This document shows, piece by piece, positions 39,498 through 48,896 of a stretch of DNA of 49,493 bases. The notes beneath the pieces were generated by a model. The model was not told the DNA's origin and did no database searches. It saw only the letters and a list, made by a program, of their open reading frames with translations. This DNA is from Gammaproteobacteria bacterium Milos-ODIII6 (GTDB lineage: Bacteria > Pseudomonadota > Gammaproteobacteria > Chromatiales > Chromatiaceae), in the NCBI GenBank assembly GCA_029228645.1, contig JAPTHR010000017.1, forward strand, positions 1 through 49,493, given 5' to 3'. The stretch's first letter is position 1. Each line of letters starts with the position of its first letter. Made by a program: the position numbers and the translations under genes.

Positions 39498-39731
39498 TGT
39501 TGGAGCGGCCTTGGCCGCGAAGGGGATTCGCCAGCAAGCTGGCTCCTACAGCCGATGGTCTTGACCTGCAGAAGCGGCTCTGGCCGCGAAAGGGATTCGC
39601 CAGCAAGCTGGCTCCTACAGCCGATGGTCTTGACCTGCAGAAGCGGCTCTGGCCGCGAAAGGGATTCGCCAGCAAGCTGGCTCCTACGGCCGATGGTCTT
39701 GACCTGCAGAAGCGGCTCTGGCCGCGAAGGA
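39498..39731. repeat. REP-like array F, 69-bp period
   Basis: The unit pairs a GGCCGCGAA half-element with the core GCCAGCAAGCTGGC, followed by TCCTACAGCCGATGGTC and TTGACCTGCAG. TTGACCTGCAG recurs at 39561, 39630 and 39699, an exact 69-bp period. The first GCGGCCTTGGCCGC element (39504) is complete; later ones are eroded to GCGGCTCTGGCCGC. The core differs from arrays A-E. The rest of 39472-39891 holds no supported gene. Confidence 0.93.
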
Positions 39732-39891: not shown

Positions 39892-41031
39892 CTATTTTGG
39901 CCGGTCAAGAAGATCTGCAAGTTTAGGCTGCGCTTCCGCTTTTTTCTCCGCCGCCTTTTGAGTGTAGGGCGTGATAACCGCCTTGTGAAAAAGATGTGGC
40001 AACAGCAGCCATACAGGCATACGAAGATAATGTGATCGAATGTACAACATCCACCTGGCAGTACCAGTGAAGGCGTCGCTGCAACTGGGATGGTCGGGTT
40101 TCAGGGCGCGCAGGAAAAGCTGATCCATTACCACGATCAGCAAGGCATTTGGCTTACTCGCCTCTGAAGCCAATAACGCCTCTTTTGGGACTGGCGTCCC
40201 CAGAATCCGGCTCGTGTAACGAAGCGCGTAGTAGAGAGGCCGGGTCAGATCGAGTTCCTTGGCGCGCGCCACCAGTTTCGCCCAAAATTCCTGGTTTTGT
40301 CCAAAATGCCGGATCAAGGCATCGAGATCGACCAGATCACGCAACCCATGCTCCAACTCCCCGTCAGAGAACAGGTGTGTGGCGCTGTGCAAAACCATAT
40401 CGGCAGGCGCAAAAACATAGATTTCTTCCAGTTCACCTGCTGGCACCGAGTCCATGATCAGCTTATGAGGATCCGGATGCAAACGGGCCGTTTCCGGGAG
40501 GATAGTATGGTGTACATCGAGCACCGTTTGGCGCTGCCTATGCATCATGGGCGGCAGTTCATGCATCCAGGTGCGATAGTAACGCTGGTCGTAGTCATCA
40601 TGATGTGAAGATATCCAACCCTTGCGATTCAATGCCCTCTCTGCATCCGACAGGGCGGACTTCGGGACCATGATGTCCACATCCACGAACGTGCGACCGG
40701 CCGCAGGCGGCAGGTCTGCGATGACATAGGCAGCCCCCTTCAGGAGCACCACTGGCACCCCGAGCCGAACCAAGGCCTTATGAATCTGTAACACCTCCCA
40801 TCGGATCGCTTGCGCGTGGCGCCTGGCCATAATGCTTGCCGACGCCAGGTGCTTTATCACTGGTTCTGGAACGCAATCCAGCAGCCCGTTGGCGGTTAAC
40901 TGATGATACAGGCGCGCCAAAAGCATGCTGTAACGGGCCTGGCGAATCAGCAAGTCCCAATCTCTCGAGCTAAGATCTTTTGCGCTCTGCGGGTTCCGAA
41001 AAACCCTGCTGACGAGATCGCCTGCCTTCAT
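39892..41031 (-). CDS. Nucleotidyltransferase family protein (HPr-rel-A cassette)
   Basis: A 379-residue protein of the DUF2204/NTP_transf_5 nucleotidyltransferase type. VVLLKGAAYVIADLPPAAGRTFVDVDIMV (about 95-123) contains the conserved KG and the D-x-D that would bind metal. DLVDLDALIRHFG is a second conserved stretch. Its substrate is unknown. It is the last gene of a cassette with an HprK-related kinase and a PqqD-like protein, and its start overlaps the kinase stop by ATGA, so it is cotranscribed. This three-gene arrangement recurs in genomes with exosortase systems, as far as I recall. Confidence 0.85.
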   Translation of the reverse strand: MKAGDLVSRVFRNPQSAKDLSSRDWDLLIRQARYSMLLARLYHQLTANGLLDCVPEPVIKHLASASIMARRHAQAIRWEVLQIHKALVRLGVPVVLLKGAAYVIADLPPAAGRTFVDVDIMVPKSALSDAERALNRKGWISSHHDDYDQRYYRTWMHELPPMMHRQRQTVLDVHHTILPETARLHPDPHKLIMDSVPAGELEEIYVFAPADMVLHSATHLFSDGELEHGLRDLVDLDALIRHFGQNQEFWAKLVARAKELDLTRPLYYALRYTSRILGTPVPKEALLASEASKPNALLIVVMDQLFLRALKPDHPSCSDAFTGTARWMLYIRSHYLRMPVWLLLPHLFHKAVITPYTQKAAEKKAEAQPKLADLLDRPK

Positions 41032-41957
41032 GCGCCTACCGCGCGGGCCTCAGGGACCTTCAGTGCATCAAAGATCTCAATGGCCTCGTCGAGCGAGCTA
41101 TAAGAAAAATCGTAACAATCACAGGAATCAACGAGACGTCTCAGAATATCGAATCCTTCCTCTCCCAAGACGTTGTAATTGAACGACTGGTCCGCGATTT
41201 CCATAAGAGATCTCCCCTTGGGGCGCGGCGCAAGAACAGCCGGTGCGCTTGCGACGTAGCGAGGAAAGATGATCCATGCAGGCCGTGTGAGAACCTTCCA
41301 GTCACGAACACTTTCTGTTGGGGCTCGCAGATGAGAAACCGTGCCCTTGCTCGTATCCCGGACGATGGGGCCGAAACAAGCGTCAGCCACATAGTCCCGA
41401 ATGATATCGATCGATTCGTTCTTGAGACTTACCGGCCTGGGTATCGGCGTCAGCTCCAGCGTTTTCGGTGAAATGAGGGCGAGTTCGTCCGAAAGCAGGC
41501 GCCAACCTCGATTGATCAGCGCGGCACATAGCGTGCTTTTCCCGGAACCCGGTGGTGCCGGCAAAATGGCCGCTTCCCCACCCTTTTCCACTACTGCGGC
41601 ATGCACGAGCAGGTACTGATGAGCGTAATTACCCACACACCAGTTCATCCCCCATTCAAATAAGGGGTAGGCTTGATCAAAGGGAAGAGGCTTGAAGGGC
41701 ACATACCCGTCAAAGGAGAAATTCACCTGCGGCCTCACCCAGTGGCGTATTCCGGCCGGGGCCTCTAAAGCAATATGGAAATCCGCGAAATCCTGGTCCA
41801 GGAGCAGCGAAGACTCCGCATACATCAGCCGGATATTGGATGCGACTGACCGGATTCGCGAGCGAAGGTGGACTACGAAAGGCCCGATGGAAAACCAGAT
41901 TCCTGGCGCTTTAAGACCGGATTGAAGCTGTTGCTCCGAAACCTCAGATATCTTCAC
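41028..41957 (-). CDS. HprK-related kinase A
   Basis: A 309-residue protein resembling the C-terminal domain of HPr kinase/phosphorylase (TIGR04352 type). The P-loop is LPAPPGSGKSTLCAAL at about 132-147, followed by LLSDELALISP, which corresponds to the second conserved segment of HprK. No HPr or PTS gene lies nearby, so a role in sugar-transport control is unlikely. In this cassette it may phosphorylate a peptide or protein partner (inference). It overlaps its neighbours on both sides by ATGA, with the PqqD-like gene before it and the nucleotidyltransferase after it. Confidence 0.88.
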   Translation of the reverse strand: MKISEVSEQQLQSGLKAPGIWFSIGPFVVHLRSRIRSVASNIRLMYAESSLLLDQDFADFHIALEAPAGIRHWVRPQVNFSFDGYVPFKPLPFDQAYPLFEWGMNWCVGNYAHQYLLVHAAVVEKGGEAAILPAPPGSGKSTLCAALINRGWRLLSDELALISPKTLELTPIPRPVSLKNESIDIIRDYVADACFGPIVRDTSKGTVSHLRAPTESVRDWKVLTRPAWIIFPRYVASAPAVLAPRPKGRSLMEIADQSFNYNVLGEEGFDILRRLVDSCDCYDFSYSSLDEAIEIFDALKVPEARAVGA

Positions 41958-42256
41958 GCGTCCGCCCGTTCGACCAATCCTTGTTGGTTAAGGCCTGTCA
42001 GCAATTGACGCATGGAGTCTCGATAAGCCTCCCGTTCCGTCCGACTCCCCAAGTACACTTTGAGGCTATCGAGTAATTCTGAAATACTCAGGGCCCTTTG
42101 CTGAAGCGCTTGAAGAACCAAAGCTGCTTCCCTGGTCACCAGCAGTGTATCGCCGGCATTGACATTCAAGACTACGGAATCGCCTTCATTTCCCCATGAA
42201 GCGAACATGAGCTGCACCCCGGCCGCCAACCGGTACCTGGCCGCTTCAGATTGCAA
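41954..42256 (-). CDS. PqqD-family peptide chaperone (HPr-rel-A type)
   Basis: A 100-residue protein of the PqqD winged-helix fold (TIGR04353 type). It has LNVNAGDTLLVTREAALVLQALQQRALSISELLDSL in the middle, the usual pattern of PqqD/RRE proteins. PqqD-like domains bind leader peptides of ribosomally made, modified peptides and present them to enzymes. Here the enzymes would be the HprK-related kinase and the nucleotidyltransferase. The cysteine-rich protein encoded just upstream (42366-43088) is a natural candidate substrate, but this is inference. Confidence 0.87.
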   Translation of the reverse strand: MQSEAARYRLAAGVQLMFASWGNEGDSVVLNVNAGDTLLVTREAALVLQALQQRALSISELLDSLKVYLGSRTEREAYRDSMRQLLTGLNQQGLVERADA

Positions 42257-42294
42257 CAGACAATACCGTCCTATTCTACCCAGACCGAAAATAC

Positions 42295-42308
42295 GGCGCT
42301 GGAGCGCC
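42295..42308 (-). terminator. Hairpin between candidate substrate gene and chaperone gene
   Basis: A perfect 6-bp stem with two-base loop (GGCGCT GG AGCGCC). On the minus strand it is followed by GTATTTTCGG, a weak U-tract. It might lower transcription from the upstream gene into the chaperone-kinase-nucleotidyltransferase genes, giving more substrate than enzyme. An adjacent direct repeat of TTTAGGACC lies near 42371-42388. Confidence 0.35.
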
Positions 42309-42365
42309 TTAAATCATCTCGATCATATCCTTCCATGGAGGACCGGAAAGAACATATCTTAAACA

Positions 42366-43088
42366 TTAAGGTCCTAAAGGTCCTAAAACCAGTTTGCACT
42401 CATTATTATCGTTTAGGAAACGCCATTGTCCGCAAGTAGTTGTCGCCCCACAGTTAAGGGTATTCATATTCGCCAAAATACCTAAAAGCCAATCGGCCGT
42501 CGCTTCTCCATTTCTGACCATGTAATAGGCTTCTATTATTCGAGCCACCGATTCGCCATAGTCGCCAGGTGCCGTAGCCGAATTCAACACCGCGGCACAC
42601 GCATGCGCATCAAGACTATTCGGATTCTCCTGCATCACTTCCATCAGGCTAGCGTCATAGCCGCTAGGGAACAGCTCCGAGTAATCGCCTAAAAAGACGT
42701 CCTTAAAACTCGTTGCAGGCGGGGCAGCCGGATCCCATTTTATACAGATACCGCCAACATCTTCCGCACACGCGCCAGCTGAGTAACCGGTGGGCCACCC
42801 GGTTGGGTTGTCTTTCCAATATTGCGGAGTACAGCCGGAATTGGTGGCGCACACGAAATTGTCTTGCTGCGAGACATTACCGGAGATTTGGCCTGACAAG
42901 CAGCCCCCGCCAACACCATTCGCAATGACCGGACGGCTGGCCAGGGTCATTAGGACCGGCGCGGCCATGCCGGCTCTGGCCAGCGCCCTGCGAGAATGAT
43001 CAACCTCGCCGAAGCGTGTCTCAGAGGGATCATTCGGCGCTAAATCCTCTCGGTTTTCACTCGCGTTAACCTTCGGTTCTTCCTTCAT
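42366..43088 (-). CDS. Cysteine-rich secreted-looking protein, candidate HPr-rel-A substrate
   Basis: I do not recognise a named family. The protein is 240 residues from the ATG at 43086-43088. The first 35 residues are acidic and polar (KEEPKVNASENREDL). A Tat-like segment follows (SRRALARAGMAAPVLMTLASRPVIA, about 33-57), then a region with ten or more cysteines in spaced pairs, including VCATNSGC, GACAEDVGGIC and NCGATTTC. WKDNPTGWPTGY is a striking aromatic motif. There is no PEP-CTERM tail. A sigma-54 promoter lies about 75 bp upstream of this start, at +7 of the longer open frame, so the shorter start is better. It precedes the PqqD-like, kinase and nucleotidyltransferase genes on the same strand, which suggests that they act on it. 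Confidence 0.7.
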   Translation of the reverse strand: MKEEPKVNASENREDLAPNDPSETRFGEVDHSRRALARAGMAAPVLMTLASRPVIANGVGGGCLSGQISGNVSQQDNFVCATNSGCTPQYWKDNPTGWPTGYSAGACAEDVGGICIKWDPAAPPATSFKDVFLGDYSELFPSGYDASLMEVMQENPNSLDAHACAAVLNSATAPGDYGESVARIIEAYYMVRNGEATADWLLGILANMNTLNCGATTTCGQWRFLNDNNECKLVLGPLGP

Positions 43089-43173
43089 CCTCGGATCTCC
43101 CACCTCAAGCGACTCGGACCGTCGCTCGGGCGATGTATGAAAAAATTGCGAAACCAAAAACTACAGGTCTATA

Positions 43174-43190
43174 TGCAATTTTCATGCCTT
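43174..43190 (-). promoter_or_regulatory. Sigma-54 promoter (PEP-CTERM-box-like)
   Basis: On the minus strand the sequence reads AAGGCATGAAAATTGCA. The GG and GC are separated by exactly ten bases, and GGCA and TTGCA fit the -24/-12 consensus well. Transcription should start near 43163, before the cysteine-rich protein gene. PrsR, a sigma-54 activator encoded 5 kb away, is the obvious candidate regulator. Upstream, TGTC occurs repeatedly (near 43214 and 43284-43293), possible activator half-sites but unproven. Confidence 0.72.
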
Positions 43191-43324
43191 GTGAAATATG
43201 CGCTTGAAAAATAAAGCGGTTTTCACTTGGCGACAATACTTTCCTTCCCTCGCCAGGCTAGTGTGTAAAAAAACCGGACACCCGACAATCACCACCTTAC
43301 TCCAAGCCGCTGGCAAGGTCACGT

Positions 43325-44629: not shown

Positions 44630-44929
44630 CAATCCTTCCACCTGATTTCCCTGGGCGATCCTTAAAGGAGCGCGGGCACTTTCACCAAACCACTGACCCG
44701 GCTCGGCAACCTGTTTTCCTAGCGACCCGCTGCCCGCGATCTTTAGCTGCGCGAGTATAGGGACTCCAGTTCCAATCATCCATACGGACACCCCAGGCAC
44801 AGCGGTCGCAAAGAGGTCGGAGTCGGCAATCGGCTCCGACACCTTTTAACCTCGAAATGATGCAGGAGCATGACGCGGGGTTTACACAGGCCGGGCGATT
44901 GCCTAGCCTCATTGGCCTTCACTCGAGGG
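44630..44929. promoter_or_regulatory. Divergent region between dehydrogenase and prsK
   Basis: About 300 bp without a gene. On the minus strand TATACT (44754-44759) is a possible -10 for the dehydrogenase gene, with only a weak -35. On the plus strand a 7-bp stem (GTCGGAG/CTCCGAC, 44816-44840) followed by ACCTTTT looks like a terminator or attenuator in the prsK leader. Confidence 0.3.
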
Positions 44930-47065
44930 ATGTCCGTGAACGTCGGAACCATCAGCTATCTTCTGGCCTTTGCCGCCTTTTCGGCTCTGACTGTTTTGCT
45001 CGCCACCTCCTGGCGTGGCCGCCGCATCGGCATCTGGATACTGCTCGCGAGTTTTGCCTCGATGCTTTGGGCGGGCCTGGCCGCGGCAGCCGCTTCCTTC
45101 GGCGTGCCGCCGATTGCCTCACAGGTTGCAGAGATCCTACGGGATGCCACCTGGTGCCTGTTCCTGCTGCAACTGCTCAAACCGGAGGCGCTGGAAGAAC
45201 CGGATAGCGCCCGGTCGGGACTGTTCGAGCACTCATTGCAAACCCGAAAGCCAAGCGACCCCGCTGACGGAGTTCGCTGGAACCGCCTATTCACCCTGGT
45301 ACTCATGCTGGCTGTACTGGCGATCCTTATAGGCCCGGTGGTTTCGCCCCGCCTGGGACTACCCCTGGCGCTGCTTCGAGACGTCACGCTGGTCGCCTGG
45401 GTCGCATTCGCCGTGTTCGGCCTGCTCATGGTGGAGCAGCTGTACCGCAACGCCTCGGCCACCCAACGCTGGTCGATCAAGTACCTCTGCCTGGGGATAG
45501 GCGGCATCTTCGCGTATGACTTCTACATGTTCGCCGACGCGCTTCTGTTCAAGGCGCTCGACGAACAGCTCTGGACCGCACGCGGCGCGATCAACGCGCT
45601 CGCGGTCCCGCTGATCGCCGTCTCGGTCGCACGCAATCCGGACTGGTCGCTGCGCATCCATGTCTCGCGCCAGGTGGTGTTCCATTCGGTCACCCTGGTC
45701 GGCGCTGGAATTTATCTGCTGATCATGGCTGGCGCCGGCTACCTCCTGCGCCTCTATGGCGGAGCCTGGGGCGGTCTGCTGCAGGTCGCCTTCCTGGCCG
45801 GTACCGGGGCACTGCTGATCACCCTGCTCTTCTCTGACCGCATCCGGGCGAAGATCCGGGTGCTGCTGAGCAAGCACTTCTTCAGCTTCAAGTACGACTA
45901 CCGCAACGAGTGGCAGCAGTTCACTGAGACGCTGGCCGGCAGCGAGCTGCCGATCCCGGATCGGGTGGTGCAGGCCATTGCGGCACTGGTCAACAGCCCC
46001 GGCGGTATTCTTTGGGTACGCCAGCAGAACGACCACTTCGACTTGCTGGCACACTGGAATATGCCCGAGGTCCAGATGCAGCCGGATGCAGCCAGCGGCT
46101 CCCTGGTGGCCTTTCTGCAAGGCAGGCAGTGGATCGTCGATGTCAACGAATATGCCGCCGACCCGGGATTATACGAAGGACTGGACCTGCCGGGCTGGCT
46201 GGCGGCGATTCCGGACGCCTGGCTGGTGGTCCCGCTGTTCTCCCGTGAACACCTGCGCGCAATCCTGCTGCTGAAACGTTCCGAGATCGAGAAAAGCATC
46301 AACTGGGAGGACCGCGACCTGCTGCGCATGGCCGGCCGGCAGGCCGCAAGCCACCTCGCCCAGCACCTGAGTGACCAGGCCCTGATGCAGTCACGCCAGT
46401 TCGAGGCCTTCAACCGCCTGTCCGCCTACGTGGTGCATGACCTCAAGAACATCCTGGCGCAGCAGGCACTGATCGTCTCGAATGCCGAGAAGCACAAGCA
46501 CAATCCTGCCTTCGTCGACGACGTGATCGCCACCGTCAAGAATTCCGTCGACCGCATGACCCGCCTGATGGAGCAGATGCGCAGCGGCATGCGCGGCGCC
46601 GAGGCACGCCCGGTAAGTCTCAACCGGGTGGTTGCGGATGTCGTCGCCAAGCGAGGCGCACAGAAACCGGTCCCGACGTTGGCACAGAGCGATGCCGACC
46701 TGACCGTCGTGGCGGATCGGGAGCAGTTGGCAAACGTGTTCAATCACCTGGTGCAGAATGCCCAGGAAGCCACCCCGGAAGATGGCCGAATCGAGGTCCG
46801 CCTTTCGCAGCAGCCGCCACACGCGATCGTCGAGGTGCAGGACACGGGAGCCGGAATGGATCAGGAATTCATCCAGAATCGTTTATTCCGCCCGTTCGAT
46901 TCCACCAAGGGCCTCACCGGCATGGGGATTGGCGTGTTCGAGAGTCGCGAGGTGGTGCGTGCCCTGGGCGGCGAGATAGCTGTCGAGAGCACCCCCGGCG
47001 AGGGAACGACATTCCGCATTGCGATACCATTGACCGTTCAGGAACAGCAAGCAGAGCCGTTATAA
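44930..47065 (+). CDS. prsK: Sensor histidine kinase PrsK
   Basis: About 711 residues, matching the XrtA/PEP-CTERM system histidine kinase (TIGR02916 type). The first ~300 residues hold eight or more membrane segments (ISYLLAFAAFSALTVLL onward). A GAF-like domain follows at about 340-490 (PDRVVQAIAALVNSPGG). The HisKA segment has the phospho-acceptor His503 in VVHDLKNILAQQ, then the ATPase domain with NHLVQNAQEA, DTGAGM and GMGIGVFESREV. It senses an unknown signal and should phosphorylate PrsR. The ATG at 44930 is close to GAGG; a GTG six bases later has better ribosome-binding spacing and may be the true start. Confidence 0.93.
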   Translation: MSVNVGTISYLLAFAAFSALTVLLATSWRGRRIGIWILLASFASMLWAGLAAAAASFGVPPIASQVAEILRDATWCLFLLQLLKPEALEEPDSARSGLFEHSLQTRKPSDPADGVRWNRLFTLVLMLAVLAILIGPVVSPRLGLPLALLRDVTLVAWVAFAVFGLLMVEQLYRNASATQRWSIKYLCLGIGGIFAYDFYMFADALLFKALDEQLWTARGAINALAVPLIAVSVARNPDWSLRIHVSRQVVFHSVTLVGAGIYLLIMAGAGYLLRLYGGAWGGLLQVAFLAGTGALLITLLFSDRIRAKIRVLLSKHFFSFKYDYRNEWQQFTETLAGSELPIPDRVVQAIAALVNSPGGILWVRQQNDHFDLLAHWNMPEVQMQPDAASGSLVAFLQGRQWIVDVNEYAADPGLYEGLDLPGWLAAIPDAWLVVPLFSREHLRAILLLKRSEIEKSINWEDRDLLRMAGRQAASHLAQHLSDQALMQSRQFEAFNRLSAYVVHDLKNILAQQALIVSNAEKHKHNPAFVDDVIATVKNSVDRMTRLMEQMRSGMRGAEARPVSLNRVVADVVAKRGAQKPVPTLAQSDADLTVVADREQLANVFNHLVQNAQEATPEDGRIEVRLSQQPPHAIVEVQDTGAGMDQEFIQNRLFRPFDSTKGLTGMGIGVFESREVVRALGGEIAVESTPGEGTTFRIAIPLTVQEQQAEPL

Positions 47066-47534: not shown

Positions 47535-48896
47535 TTGAAAGAAGCAAAGCGATATTTGCTGGTGGTGGAGGATGACCCCGGGCTGCAAAGCCAGCTGCGG
47601 TGGTGTTTCGATGGATACGAGGTATTGGTCGCTGGGGATCGCGAGGAAGCGATCGCCCACCTGCGCCGGCACGAGCCGGGCGTGGTCACCCTGGACCTGG
47701 GACTGCCACCCGATCCCGGCGGAGTGAGCGAAGGACTCACCACCCTGCAGGAGATCCTCTCGTTGGCGCCCGGCACCAAGGTCATCGTCGTGACCGGCGA
47801 CAACGATCGCGCCAACGCGGTCCGCGCGATCGGCATGGGCGCCTACGATTTCTATCAGAAACCGGTCGACCCCGAGCTGCTCGCGTTGATCGTGGACCGC
47901 GCCTACCAGGTACACGAACTCGAAAACGAAAACCGTCGCCTGCAGCAGCAGACGAGCCACAAGGCGCCGCTGGAAGGCATCATCGCCACCAGTCCGCAGA
48001 TGCTCAAGGTCTGCCGAATGGTCGAGAAGGTCGCGCCCTCCGACATCACCACCCTGCTGCTCGGCCCCAGTGGTACCGGCAAGGAAGTCATCGCACGCGC
48101 CCTGCACGAACTCAGCCCGCGCGCGAACAAAAAGATGGTGGCGATCAACTGCGCCGCCATCCCGGACACCCTGCTGGAGAGCGAACTGTTTGGCTACGAG
48201 AAGGGGGCCTTCACCGGTGCGGCAAAGCAGACCCGGGGCAAGATCGAATATGCCGACGGCGGCACCCTGTTCCTGGACGAGATCGGCGACCTGCCCTTCG
48301 ACCTGCAGGCCAAGCTGTTGCGCTTCGTCCAGGAACGGGTGGTCGAGCGCATCGGCGGACGCGCGGAAATACCGGTCGACGTGCGCATCATCTGCGCGAC
48401 CCATCAGAATCTGAAGCAGCTGATCGCCGAAGGACGTTTCCGTGAGGACCTGTACTACCGGGTCAGCGAGATCACCATCAACATCCCGCCGCTCAAGGAC
48501 CGCGAGGGCGACGTGATCGTGCTGGCCAAGGCCTTCCTGGATCGCTTCGCGGAGGAGCAGAAGCGTCCCATCCGCGGGTTCGACCCGGAGGCGATCGCCG
48601 GGATCGAGCAATACGACTGGCCGGGCAACGTGCGCGAGATCGAGAGCCGCATCAAGCGCGCGGTGATCATGTCGGATGGACCGAGCATTTCGCTCGACGA
48701 CCTGGAGCTGGATGTACCCAATGATGAAGCCGAGGCCATGCCGCTCAACCTGCAGCAGGTGCGTGACGAGGCCGAGCGCGTGGCGATCAACCGCGCACTC
48801 AACCATACCGAAAATGTATCTGATGCGGCCAAGCTGCTGGGCATCACCCGCCCCACCCTGTATCGGCTGATGGAGAAGTATGGGATGGCGTCTTAG
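47535..48896 (+). CDS. prsR: Sigma-54-dependent response regulator PrsR
   Basis: About 453 residues, the PEP-CTERM-box response regulator (TIGR02915 type). The receiver domain has LLVVEDDPG, the phospho-acceptor Asp54 in VTLDLGLPP and a conserved Lys in YQKPVDPEL. The central AAA+ domain has Walker A GPSGTGKEV and the sigma-54 contact loop GAFTGA. A Fis-type helix-turn-helix ends the protein (NVSDAAKLLGITRPTLYRLM). The start is TTG with GAGG seven bases upstream; a nearby ATG is out of frame. It should activate sigma-54 promoters such as that at 43174-43190. Confidence 0.95.
   Translation: MKEAKRYLLVVEDDPGLQSQLRWCFDGYEVLVAGDREEAIAHLRRHEPGVVTLDLGLPPDPGGVSEGLTTLQEILSLAPGTKVIVVTGDNDRANAVRAIGMGAYDFYQKPVDPELLALIVDRAYQVHELENENRRLQQQTSHKAPLEGIIATSPQMLKVCRMVEKVAPSDITTLLLGPSGTGKEVIARALHELSPRANKKMVAINCAAIPDTLLESELFGYEKGAFTGAAKQTRGKIEYADGGTLFLDEIGDLPFDLQAKLLRFVQERVVERIGGRAEIPVDVRIICATHQNLKQLIAEGRFREDLYYRVSEITINIPPLKDREGDVIVLAKAFLDRFAEEQKRPIRGFDPEAIAGIEQYDWPGNVREIESRIKRAVIMSDGPSISLDDLELDVPNDEAEAMPLNLQQVRDEAERVAINRALNHTENVSDAAKLLGITRPTLYRLMEKYGMAS

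Follow-up and report, generated by a model that had tools for sequence, protein, structure and literature searches.

The window analysed here is a stretch of 49,493 nucleotides (nt) of Gammaproteobacteria bacterium Milos-ODIII6 (Chromatiaceae; assembly GCA_029228645.1, contig JAPTHR010000017.1, positions 1 to 49,493). At positions 39892-43190 it contains, on the minus strand, the four co-directional genes that the initial annotation had recognised (Table 1). They encode an export-type protein without an assigned family, here denoted SUB (candidate substrate), a PqqD-like protein, an HprK-related kinase and a nucleotidyltransferase (NT) of the PF14907 family. The kinase and the NT, likewise proposed in that annotation, are borne out by scores above the respective family cut-offs. 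The PqqD-like protein is encoded at the expected gene position and aligns with positions 4-74 of the 74 positions of the TIGR04353 profile. An ATGA overlap, originally reported for all of the last three genes, is present between the kinase and NT genes; the PqqD-like and kinase genes overlap by GTGA. Of the two potential starts of SUB, ATG at 43088 is preferred over TTG at 43157 because the sigma-54 site ends at 43174. The placement of the cassette in an exosortase locus holds: the genes for PrsK and PrsR lie on one side and further XrtA exopolysaccharide genes on the opposite side. The genome of the window also contains a second complete cassette, SUB included. Comparison with counterparts in other genomes lends good support to the prediction that the four-gene unit is a dedicated substrate-modification system.

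Table 1. Features of the cassette and its surroundings in the window
Feature	Position	Strand	Remarks
NT, nucleotidyltransferase-fold protein	39892..41031	-	PF14907, 214 bits (cut-off 31.2); K-G, R..D-x-D and D-x-H-H present
HprK-related kinase A	41028..41957	-	TIGR04352, 405.5 bits (cut-off 200); His, P-loop Lys and Asp-Glu present
PqqD-like putative peptide chaperone	41954..42256	-	TIGR04353, 34.7 bits; start codon uncertain
SUB, export-type candidate substrate	42366..43088	-	240 amino acids, 9 Cys; twin-arginine-like leader, type 1 body; ATG start
CLSGQISGNVS, SUB amino acids 63-73	42870..42902	-	window form of conserved C-x-x-S-G-x-x-S-G-N-x-S
SUB leader segment SRRALARAGMAAPVLMTLASRPVIAN, amino acids 32-57	42918..42995	-	conserved across the family
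Sigma-54 -24/-12 element AGGCATGAAAATTGCA	43174..43189	-	comparison across loci
Upstream element TGTCCGGTTTTTTTACA, probable activator (PrsR) site	43264..43280	-	74 nt from the sigma-54 element
PrsK, XrtA/PEP-CTERM system histidine kinase, probable regulator	44870..47065	+	TIGR02916, 791.5 bits
PrsR, sigma-54-dependent response regulator, probable SUB activator	47556..48887 (span of profile match)	+	TIGR02915, 727.1 bits

For the SUB protein of the window, neither Pfam nor NCBIfam yields a match at E<=1. Among 32 relatives of the same type (type 1, defined below), none matches Pfam at E<=0.01, and a comparison with NCBIfam at E<=1 yields five weak matches, each of a single member to a different, unrelated model, with a best E of 0.0042. 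A PDB sequence search with SUB gives a best E of only 0.22, and the AlphaFold2 model, built from six sequences, has a predicted local distance difference test (pLDDT) score of 43.2 and was left out of the fold searches. The proteins of this family (74-276 amino acids in the first set of loci introduced below) carry a leader with the consensus S-R-R-x-[LF]-x-K-[AG]-...-A-P-V-x-x-T-L-x-S that is common to types 1 and 2. A conserved leader, a variable remainder and modifying enzymes encoded alongside make up the pattern typical of ribosomally synthesized and post-translationally modified peptides (RiPPs). The substrate had been described as cysteine-rich and Tat (twin-arginine translocation)-like. 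The first term fits the window protein but not the family, in which the cysteine content varies from 2 to 15 per open reading frame (ORF), and it was rejected as a family-wide trait. As to the second, the window SUB does carry a twin-arginine segment but does not match the Tat model TIGR01409 at E<=1; one of the 32 type 1 relatives gives a weak match (best E 0.073), and weak, sub-cut-off matches are found in 4 of 5 leader-bearing proteins of another scanned set. The C-terminus of the window SUB, NECKLVLGPLGP, is not a PEP-CTERM tail, which combines a PEP motif, a transmembrane stretch and a basic end. A lipoprotein lipobox ahead of a conserved SUB cysteine was also considered and rejected, the preceding residues being variable on inspection by eye.

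The association of SUB with the other three genes extends far beyond the window. Of the 369 genomes of the window's class, 41 contain a match above the TIGR04352 cut-off (matches at E<=0.001, mostly weak, occur in 181). They provide 42 loci, two of them from the genome of the window; together with seven loci from named genomes found by kinase sequence, these constitute a first set of 49. To detect a SUB relative, a single-sequence search with the window protein succeeds in 33 of the 49 loci, the window included, and an iterated profile in 47 (41 of 42 class loci and 6 of 7 named-genome loci). The two loci without SUB are L040, where the contig starts, and L085, which encodes a distant kinase (28% identity) in a Brocadiaceae bin. 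The NT is present in 47 of the 49 loci. The order SUB-PqqD-kinase-NT is found in 39, and in six the NT gene is divergent beside SUB; the remaining four include L083, in which a PqqD-like ORF is present but missed by the profile.

A held-out set was derived from a phylum-wide kinase search, in which 61 of 398 genomes scored above the cut-off, four of them already in the class set. The 57 other genomes provide 53 loci (9 from the window's class and 44 from elsewhere in the phylum), with G434, G385, G540 and G524 (contig ends or partial) excluded. SUB is found in 48 of the 53: in 44 by a profile without training on them, in every case within 450 nt of the kinase ORF, and in four (L193, L194, L199, L201) by the leader and C-terminal patterns together with inspection. 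No SUB is found by profile, pattern or inspection in L172, L173, L185, L189 and L203, and none in the three loci with kinases below the cut-off (L209-L211). A PqqD-like ORF is present in 44 and the NT in 43 of the held-out loci. Thus, the comparison of neighbourhoods that the initial annotation had called for places a leader-bearing protein beside the kinase in nearly all loci of both sets.

Homologues occurring mostly away from the cassette, the pattern that would speak against the proposal, are not what is observed. The type 1 profile gives 44 matches in the same 369 class genomes, and all 30 matches above 140 bits adjoin an above-cut-off kinase; given that the profile was trained on most of these loci, the point is that there are no strong matches elsewhere. 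The weaker matches include SUB proteins of known cassettes (G348 and G107, as well as G057, G323 and G134, in which the leader only is matched) and matches to the body only, covering model positions of about 66-199 (G015:C37, G080, G215, G099, G084 and G249:C1:3747088). The last group indicates that the body, recognised by its GYWK and LNA motifs, is shared with other proteins that have neither leader nor cassette; in L124, L125, L126 and L127 it is seen in non-cassette, leaderless and mostly larger proteins.

Two types of SUB can be distinguished by the position of a C-x-x-S motif. In type 1, which includes the window protein, the motif lies 18-50 residues beyond the twin arginine (34 of 42 by pattern) and often precedes S-G-N-x-S, which is followed by the body with the GYWK and LNA motifs. 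The corresponding window segment is C-L-S-G, with a gap between Cys and Ser one residue shorter than in the consensus. In type 2, the C-terminus has the form [ST]-C-[WFY]-x-S-[FLI], with 1-14 residues beyond the serine (2-6 in 37 of 45). A C-terminal C-x-x-S is present in 45 of 48 type 2 proteins (7 of 10 in the first set and 38 of 38 in the held-out set, L194 uncounted), or 45 of 52 before the reassignment by hand of four type 1-like proteins (L083, L156, L183, L191) that the pattern had placed in type 2 and that were moved to type 1 before the tree was built; L194 was added to type 2. The type 2 motif was first noticed in 10 class or named loci (7 strict) and then applied to the held-out set, where C-x-x-S falls within the last 25 residues of all 38 type 2 proteins, across 11 family codes. 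The same placement is seen in 19 of 578 other long held-out ORFs, in 0 of 56 kinases, in 0 of 45 nucleotidyltransferases and in 0 of 42 type 1 SUBs; SUB sequences are related to one another, so that these counts are not independent. Conservation points to the C-x-x-S serine as the candidate modified residue, and the serine is a better candidate than the cysteine because three type 2 proteins (L041, L060, L062) retain it while having lost the cysteine.

The kinases appear to have diverged together with the SUB types. In a maximum-likelihood tree of 101 kinases, the midpoint split separates 46 kinases with type 1 SUBs (plus one without SUB) from 49 with type 2 SUBs (plus five without SUB), and none of 200 shuffles is as low. 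Support is 97/63 at the type split and 97/92 for 45 type 1 rows, values from a bootstrap that had not settled. The window's class is represented on both sides of the tree and Pelagibius, a member of Rhodovibrionaceae, belongs to type 1, so that the co-divergence of type and kinase does not reflect taxonomy alone. The kinase histidine, P-loop lysine, aspartate and glutamate are kept in 49 of 49 sequences and the NT residues of K-G, Arg..D-x-D and D-x-H-H in 47 of 47; by these motifs, the cassette kinases and NTs look intact. In sequence searches against the PDB, the kinase reaches a best E of 0.42 (HprK/P) and the NT one of 0.92. The window kinase also weakly resembles SynChlorMet ScmC (TIGR04249, 32 bits, cut-off 125) and HprK_rel_B (TIGR04355, 17.8 bits, cut-off 200). 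The predicted NT structure (pLDDT 87.7) has a nucleotidyltransferase fold, and a fold search of the PDB started with this model finds MenT1, ANT(2''), LnuA and TM1012, all weakly (best E 3.4e-3), and FKRP at E 0.44. The model thus supports the fold class of the NT but neither its donor nor its acceptor.

The sigma-54 promoter that had been assigned to SUB is common in the first set and uncommon in the held-out set. An element scoring at least 0.85 lies upstream of SUB in 37 of 46 first-set loci (one locus with a short upstream region omitted); the opposite strand gives 0 of 46, and among 2176 random windows the rate is 4.1%. In the held-out set, the element is found in 10 of 47 loci (random windows 2.9%), so that sigma-54 control was discarded as a rule for all loci. 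When the sequences ahead of the sigma-54 sites are searched blindly for paired words, TGTC...TTTACA emerges. At a score of at least 0.8, this 17-mer occurs in 31 of 37 loci; the opposite strand has it in 0 of 37, and among 1375 random windows the rate is 0.2%. Its spacer to the sigma-54 element measures 72.3 +/- 10.1 nt. The 31 of 37 is an in-sample figure, the scoring model coming from the same sequences; an outside check is the count in the genome of the window, which contains 17 exact copies of the 17-mer and none of the reversed control. At 10 of these 17 sites, a sigma-54 element scoring at least 0.81 follows at 62-85 nt, and the other seven have none. The ten paired sites precede six PEP-CTERM-flagged ORFs, one PAP variant, SUB, and the genes at L245 and L249, which are not PEP-CTERM by the pattern used and are possible further members of the same regulon.

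Upstream of the window SUB, an element in the position of motif 1, a spacer of 74 nt and a -24/-12 element are followed by 85 nt to the start codon. PEP-CTERM genes, as described by Haft and colleagues in the part of their paper drawn on here (PMC1569441), have the same geometry, namely motif 1, a spacer of 62.8 +/- 10.6 nt (maximum 92, minimum 32) and a -24/-12 motif, with PrsR as the probable activator; the comparison made here is one of spacing. For one PEP-CTERM gene, dependence on RpoN has been demonstrated experimentally, according to the section of PMC9850573 used here. PrsR scores above its cut-off in 106 of the 369 class genomes and in 40 of the 41 kinase-bearing ones (compared by eye from two listings), the exception being a genome that is 75% complete; the Fisher p value for this co-occurrence is 1.3e-23, relatedness ignored.

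The same leader is found on much shorter products encoded near more distant kinases. Matches to the leader only identify short ORFs in five genomes (G184, G360, G285, G101, G318). Seven loci from these genomes (L116-L122) contain 11 short ORFs that measure 63-107 amino acids between stops (some are shorter if counted from the first Met), all with S-R-R-x-F-[ILV]-[KR] and an AP...LTL segment and, by eye, with Gly-Ser shortly after the latter. A kinase match is present in five of the seven loci, always below the family cut-off, and absent from L118 and L122 within the stretch examined; in L117, the peptide, PqqD, kinase and PF14907 nucleotidyltransferase are all found together. Four of 20 additional divergent-kinase loci (L224, L225, L229, L230) encode a leader-like peptide. 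Leader-bearing ORFs of 58-107 amino acids, often with Gly-Ser next and in several cases with PqqD and PF14907 genes nearby, thus characterise L116-L122, L229 and L230, which likely represent a peptide branch of the HPr-rel-A-type system. The peptides at L224:1702-2010 and L225:1930-2313, beside divergent kinases, contain RRRLLKxGAYVPPAI... together with G-S-C-x-P-S-A-C-x-P-C; their remainders contain C-x-P-S, another combination of a leader with C-x-x-S.

Other neighbours are less constant. Within the stretches examined at 105 loci, 16 neighbour clusters occur in at least five loci, of which 14 can be named and two have no family. At least one XrtA-system neighbour (PrsK, PrsR, TIGR03087, TIGR03088 or TIGR03108 clusters) is present in 43 of the 105 loci, four of them below the kinase cut-off. 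A same-strand ORF with tetratricopeptide repeats (TPR) and a sulfotransferase domain, both identified in two members scanned, overlaps or abuts the end of the kinase ORF in all 12 loci of its cluster (L160, L167-L169, L177, L180-L182, L184, L204, L205, L207), all of type 2, with overlaps of 9-117 nt from stop to stop. It is followed by the NT in seven of the 12, and no NT lies within the stretch examined in L181, L182, L204, L205 and L207. This enzyme looks like an optional extra tailoring step; it could possibly add a sulfation step or serve as a replacement. A trypsin-like cluster (PF13365 in two members scanned) is present in 19 of the 105 loci (17 of type 1); in 15, no more than 400 nt separate it from SUB or NT. 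Such HtrA-type proteases adjoin the cassette, e.g., at L050:5214-5990 and L081:10015-10800, and leader removal or quality control is a possible role for them. In the genome of the window, a trypsin-like relative (44% identity) is encoded elsewhere. A few members of such neighbour clusters are overlapping-frame ORFs. An asparagine-synthase-like cluster is likewise present in 19 of the 105 loci; its only scanned member, L157:5682-7499, matches TIGR03108, the XrtA amidotransferase, with 968 bits and scores 239 bits against the lasso cyclase model, whose cut-off is 525. The other named clusters are galE, PstS-like, GlmU, acyl-CoA ligase, hybrid histidine kinase, PrsT and XrtA sugar transferase, and there is no lyase or dedicated cyclase among the 14 that can be named.

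The pathway had been called undescribed, which is correct in part: NCBIfam already names the kinase and the chaperone as components of an 'HPr-rel-A system', the window kinase belonging to TIGR04352. No NCBIfam model fits SUB, and the novelty lies in this partner protein, in its division into two types and in the candidate site. We take the PF14907 nucleotidyltransferase to be a further part of that system. In the literature searched (supplements outside the search), no substrate or chemistry is described for the HPr-rel-A system, and the main text of two papers on RiPP recognition elements contains none of the terms sought for it.

The closest functional analogy is offered by the tailoring of lasso peptides, as covered in the consulted parts of a review (PMC9266682; also PMC7533575). 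In paeninodin-type peptides, PadeK phosphorylates the C-terminal serine of the precursor, and in pseudomycoidin PsmN installs a hexose on the phosphoserine made by PsmK, unless PsmN is a true nucleotidyltransferase and a host enzyme adds the sugar. A PqqD-like recognition protein, an HprK-like kinase, a nucleotidyltransferase and a leader are common to these pathways (PadeK/ThcoK; PsmK with PsmN) and to the cassette, and the conserved serine near the C-terminus of type 2 SUBs resembles that of paeninodin (PMC9266682). The differences are the size of SUB, its twin-arginine-like leader, the absence of a dedicated lasso cyclase from the named neighbours, the restriction of short peptides to divergent-kinase loci, and the kinase motif, H-K-D-E here and His-Lys-Asp-Asp in that review. 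With the PEP-CTERM/exosortase (XrtA) system, as far as the portions used of PMC1569441 and PMC9850573 describe it, the cassette shares PrsK/PrsR, the sigma-54 elements and the genomic setting in the window's class; the differences are that SUB lacks a PEP-CTERM tail, that the enzymes of the cassette do not belong to the exosortase and that the promoter is missing from most held-out loci.

Taken together, these observations are best compatible with a RiPP-like, leader-guided unit that probably phosphorylates a serine of an exported protein and then attaches a nucleotide or sugar to it, in analogy to the action of PsmK and PsmN on pseudomycoidin. In the window's class, PrsK/PrsR and sigma-54 would turn on SUB alongside the PEP-CTERM proteins, a step to which the promoter sequences point. 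The PqqD-like protein would bind the leader and present SUB to the kinase, which would phosphorylate the C-x-x-S serine; this residue follows the leader in type 1 and lies close to the very C-terminus in type 2. The NT-fold enzyme would then attach a nucleotide or sugar via that phosphate, with the sulfotransferase contributing in some type 2 loci. The chemistry of these two enzymes is inferred from homology to paeninodin and pseudomycoidin tailoring. Finally, SUB would be exported, perhaps by Tat because modification would precede export, and its leader removed, for which the trypsin-like protease encoded nearby in a minority of loci is a candidate.

Several observations weigh against this reconstruction. 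The pairing itself is compatible with dependence or with joint inheritance and does not reveal which of the proteins acts on another. Among the 44 held-out profile matches to SUB, seven are weak (E 1e-3 to 1e-2), and by profile the PqqD-like gene is missing from 9 and the NT from 10 of the 53 held-out loci, L175 at least being cut by a contig end. The PqqD-like protein of the window itself falls marginally below the TIGR04353 cut-off of 35 bits. One SUB with leader and body, G296:C20 (92.5 bits), has no linked kinase, the sole such case in the 369 genomes; the cassette on contig C58 may provide the enzymes for it in trans. This ORF (L123:5908-7110, minus strand) has a TGTC...TTTACA and GG-N10-GC pair beside or inside its span. 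At the candidate site, the pattern used does not find C-x-x-S where expected in 8 of 42 type 1 SUBs, including that of the window, which has C-L-S instead, and the three type 2 proteins without the cysteine carry Ala or Ser in its position. Regarding regulation, 37 of 47 held-out loci are without the sigma-54 element, as is the region upstream of the second SUB copy in the genome of the window. Finally, that the lasso kinases and PsmN match the families found in the window, PsmN being placed in PF14907, is an assumption.

An alternative that appears unlikely is that the enzymes have as their target some small molecule of the exopolysaccharide pathway, such as a sugar or lipid, with SUB as a co-expressed secreted partner, e.g., a binding protein. 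The XrtA-system neighbours would fit such a role, nucleotidyltransferase folds include the small-molecule adenylyltransferases ANT(2'') and LnuA, and the sulfotransferase next to 12 type 2 kinases could equally modify a sugar. However, SUB is the most constant neighbour while the others vary, the PqqD-like peptide chaperone would be left without a task, the kinase phylogeny tracks SUB type, and short leader peptides are found beside related kinases. It is quite improbable that the leader is an ordinary Tat signal, with the APV..TL segment a by-product of shared ancestry and PqqD recognising something else. The SRRxFLK-like form, the AxA-like end and the weak TIGR01409 matches described above are what a Tat signal would show, but the pattern recurs on unlike bodies (type 1, type 2 and short peptides), nearly always beside PqqD/HprK-type genes; because the loci were chosen by kinase or leader, this recurrence is a weaker argument than it looks.

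Very improbable, too, is a scheme in which activation by the kinase only makes the serine a leaving group, to be attacked by the C-x-x-S cysteine, with a small thioether ring as the product that retains neither phosphate nor sugar. Kinase activation of serine followed by cysteine addition is established in lanthipeptides, and the two residues are three apart in most members of both types; the serine is kept without the cysteine in L041, L060 and L062, and the named neighbour clusters include no lyase or dedicated cyclase, two of the 16 having no family. Hardly any credence can be given to a toxin-antitoxin-like pair of NT and partner, suggested by the weak similarity to MenT1, the nearest fold, given the fixed order of four genes in 39 of 49 loci and the poor fit of an active-looking kinase, an export-type partner and co-control with PEP-CTERM proteins.

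If leader-guided serine modification is indeed the function of the cassette, tailoring by a kinase and a nucleotidyltransferase, known from lasso peptides, would extend to full-size surface proteins and, in the window's class, would be switched on together with PEP-CTERM proteins. A further idea, doubtful but conceivable, is that a phosphodiester-linked nucleotide or sugar tag on the serine, sulfated in some type 2 systems, couples SUB to the XrtA exopolysaccharide in parallel to the exosortase; the tagged serine would then lie near the start of the mature protein in type 1 or at its C-terminus in type 2. With a near-constant partner, a leader, a candidate site of a few residues and co-diverged kinases, the question of the substrate is directly testable.

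Just beyond the end of the NT gene, at window positions 39500-39730, inspection by eye reveals a GC-rich unit (GCGGCTCTGGCCGCGAAAGGGATTCGCCAGCAAGCTGGCTCCTAC...) in several almost identical copies arranged head to tail, which resemble extragenic repeat elements.

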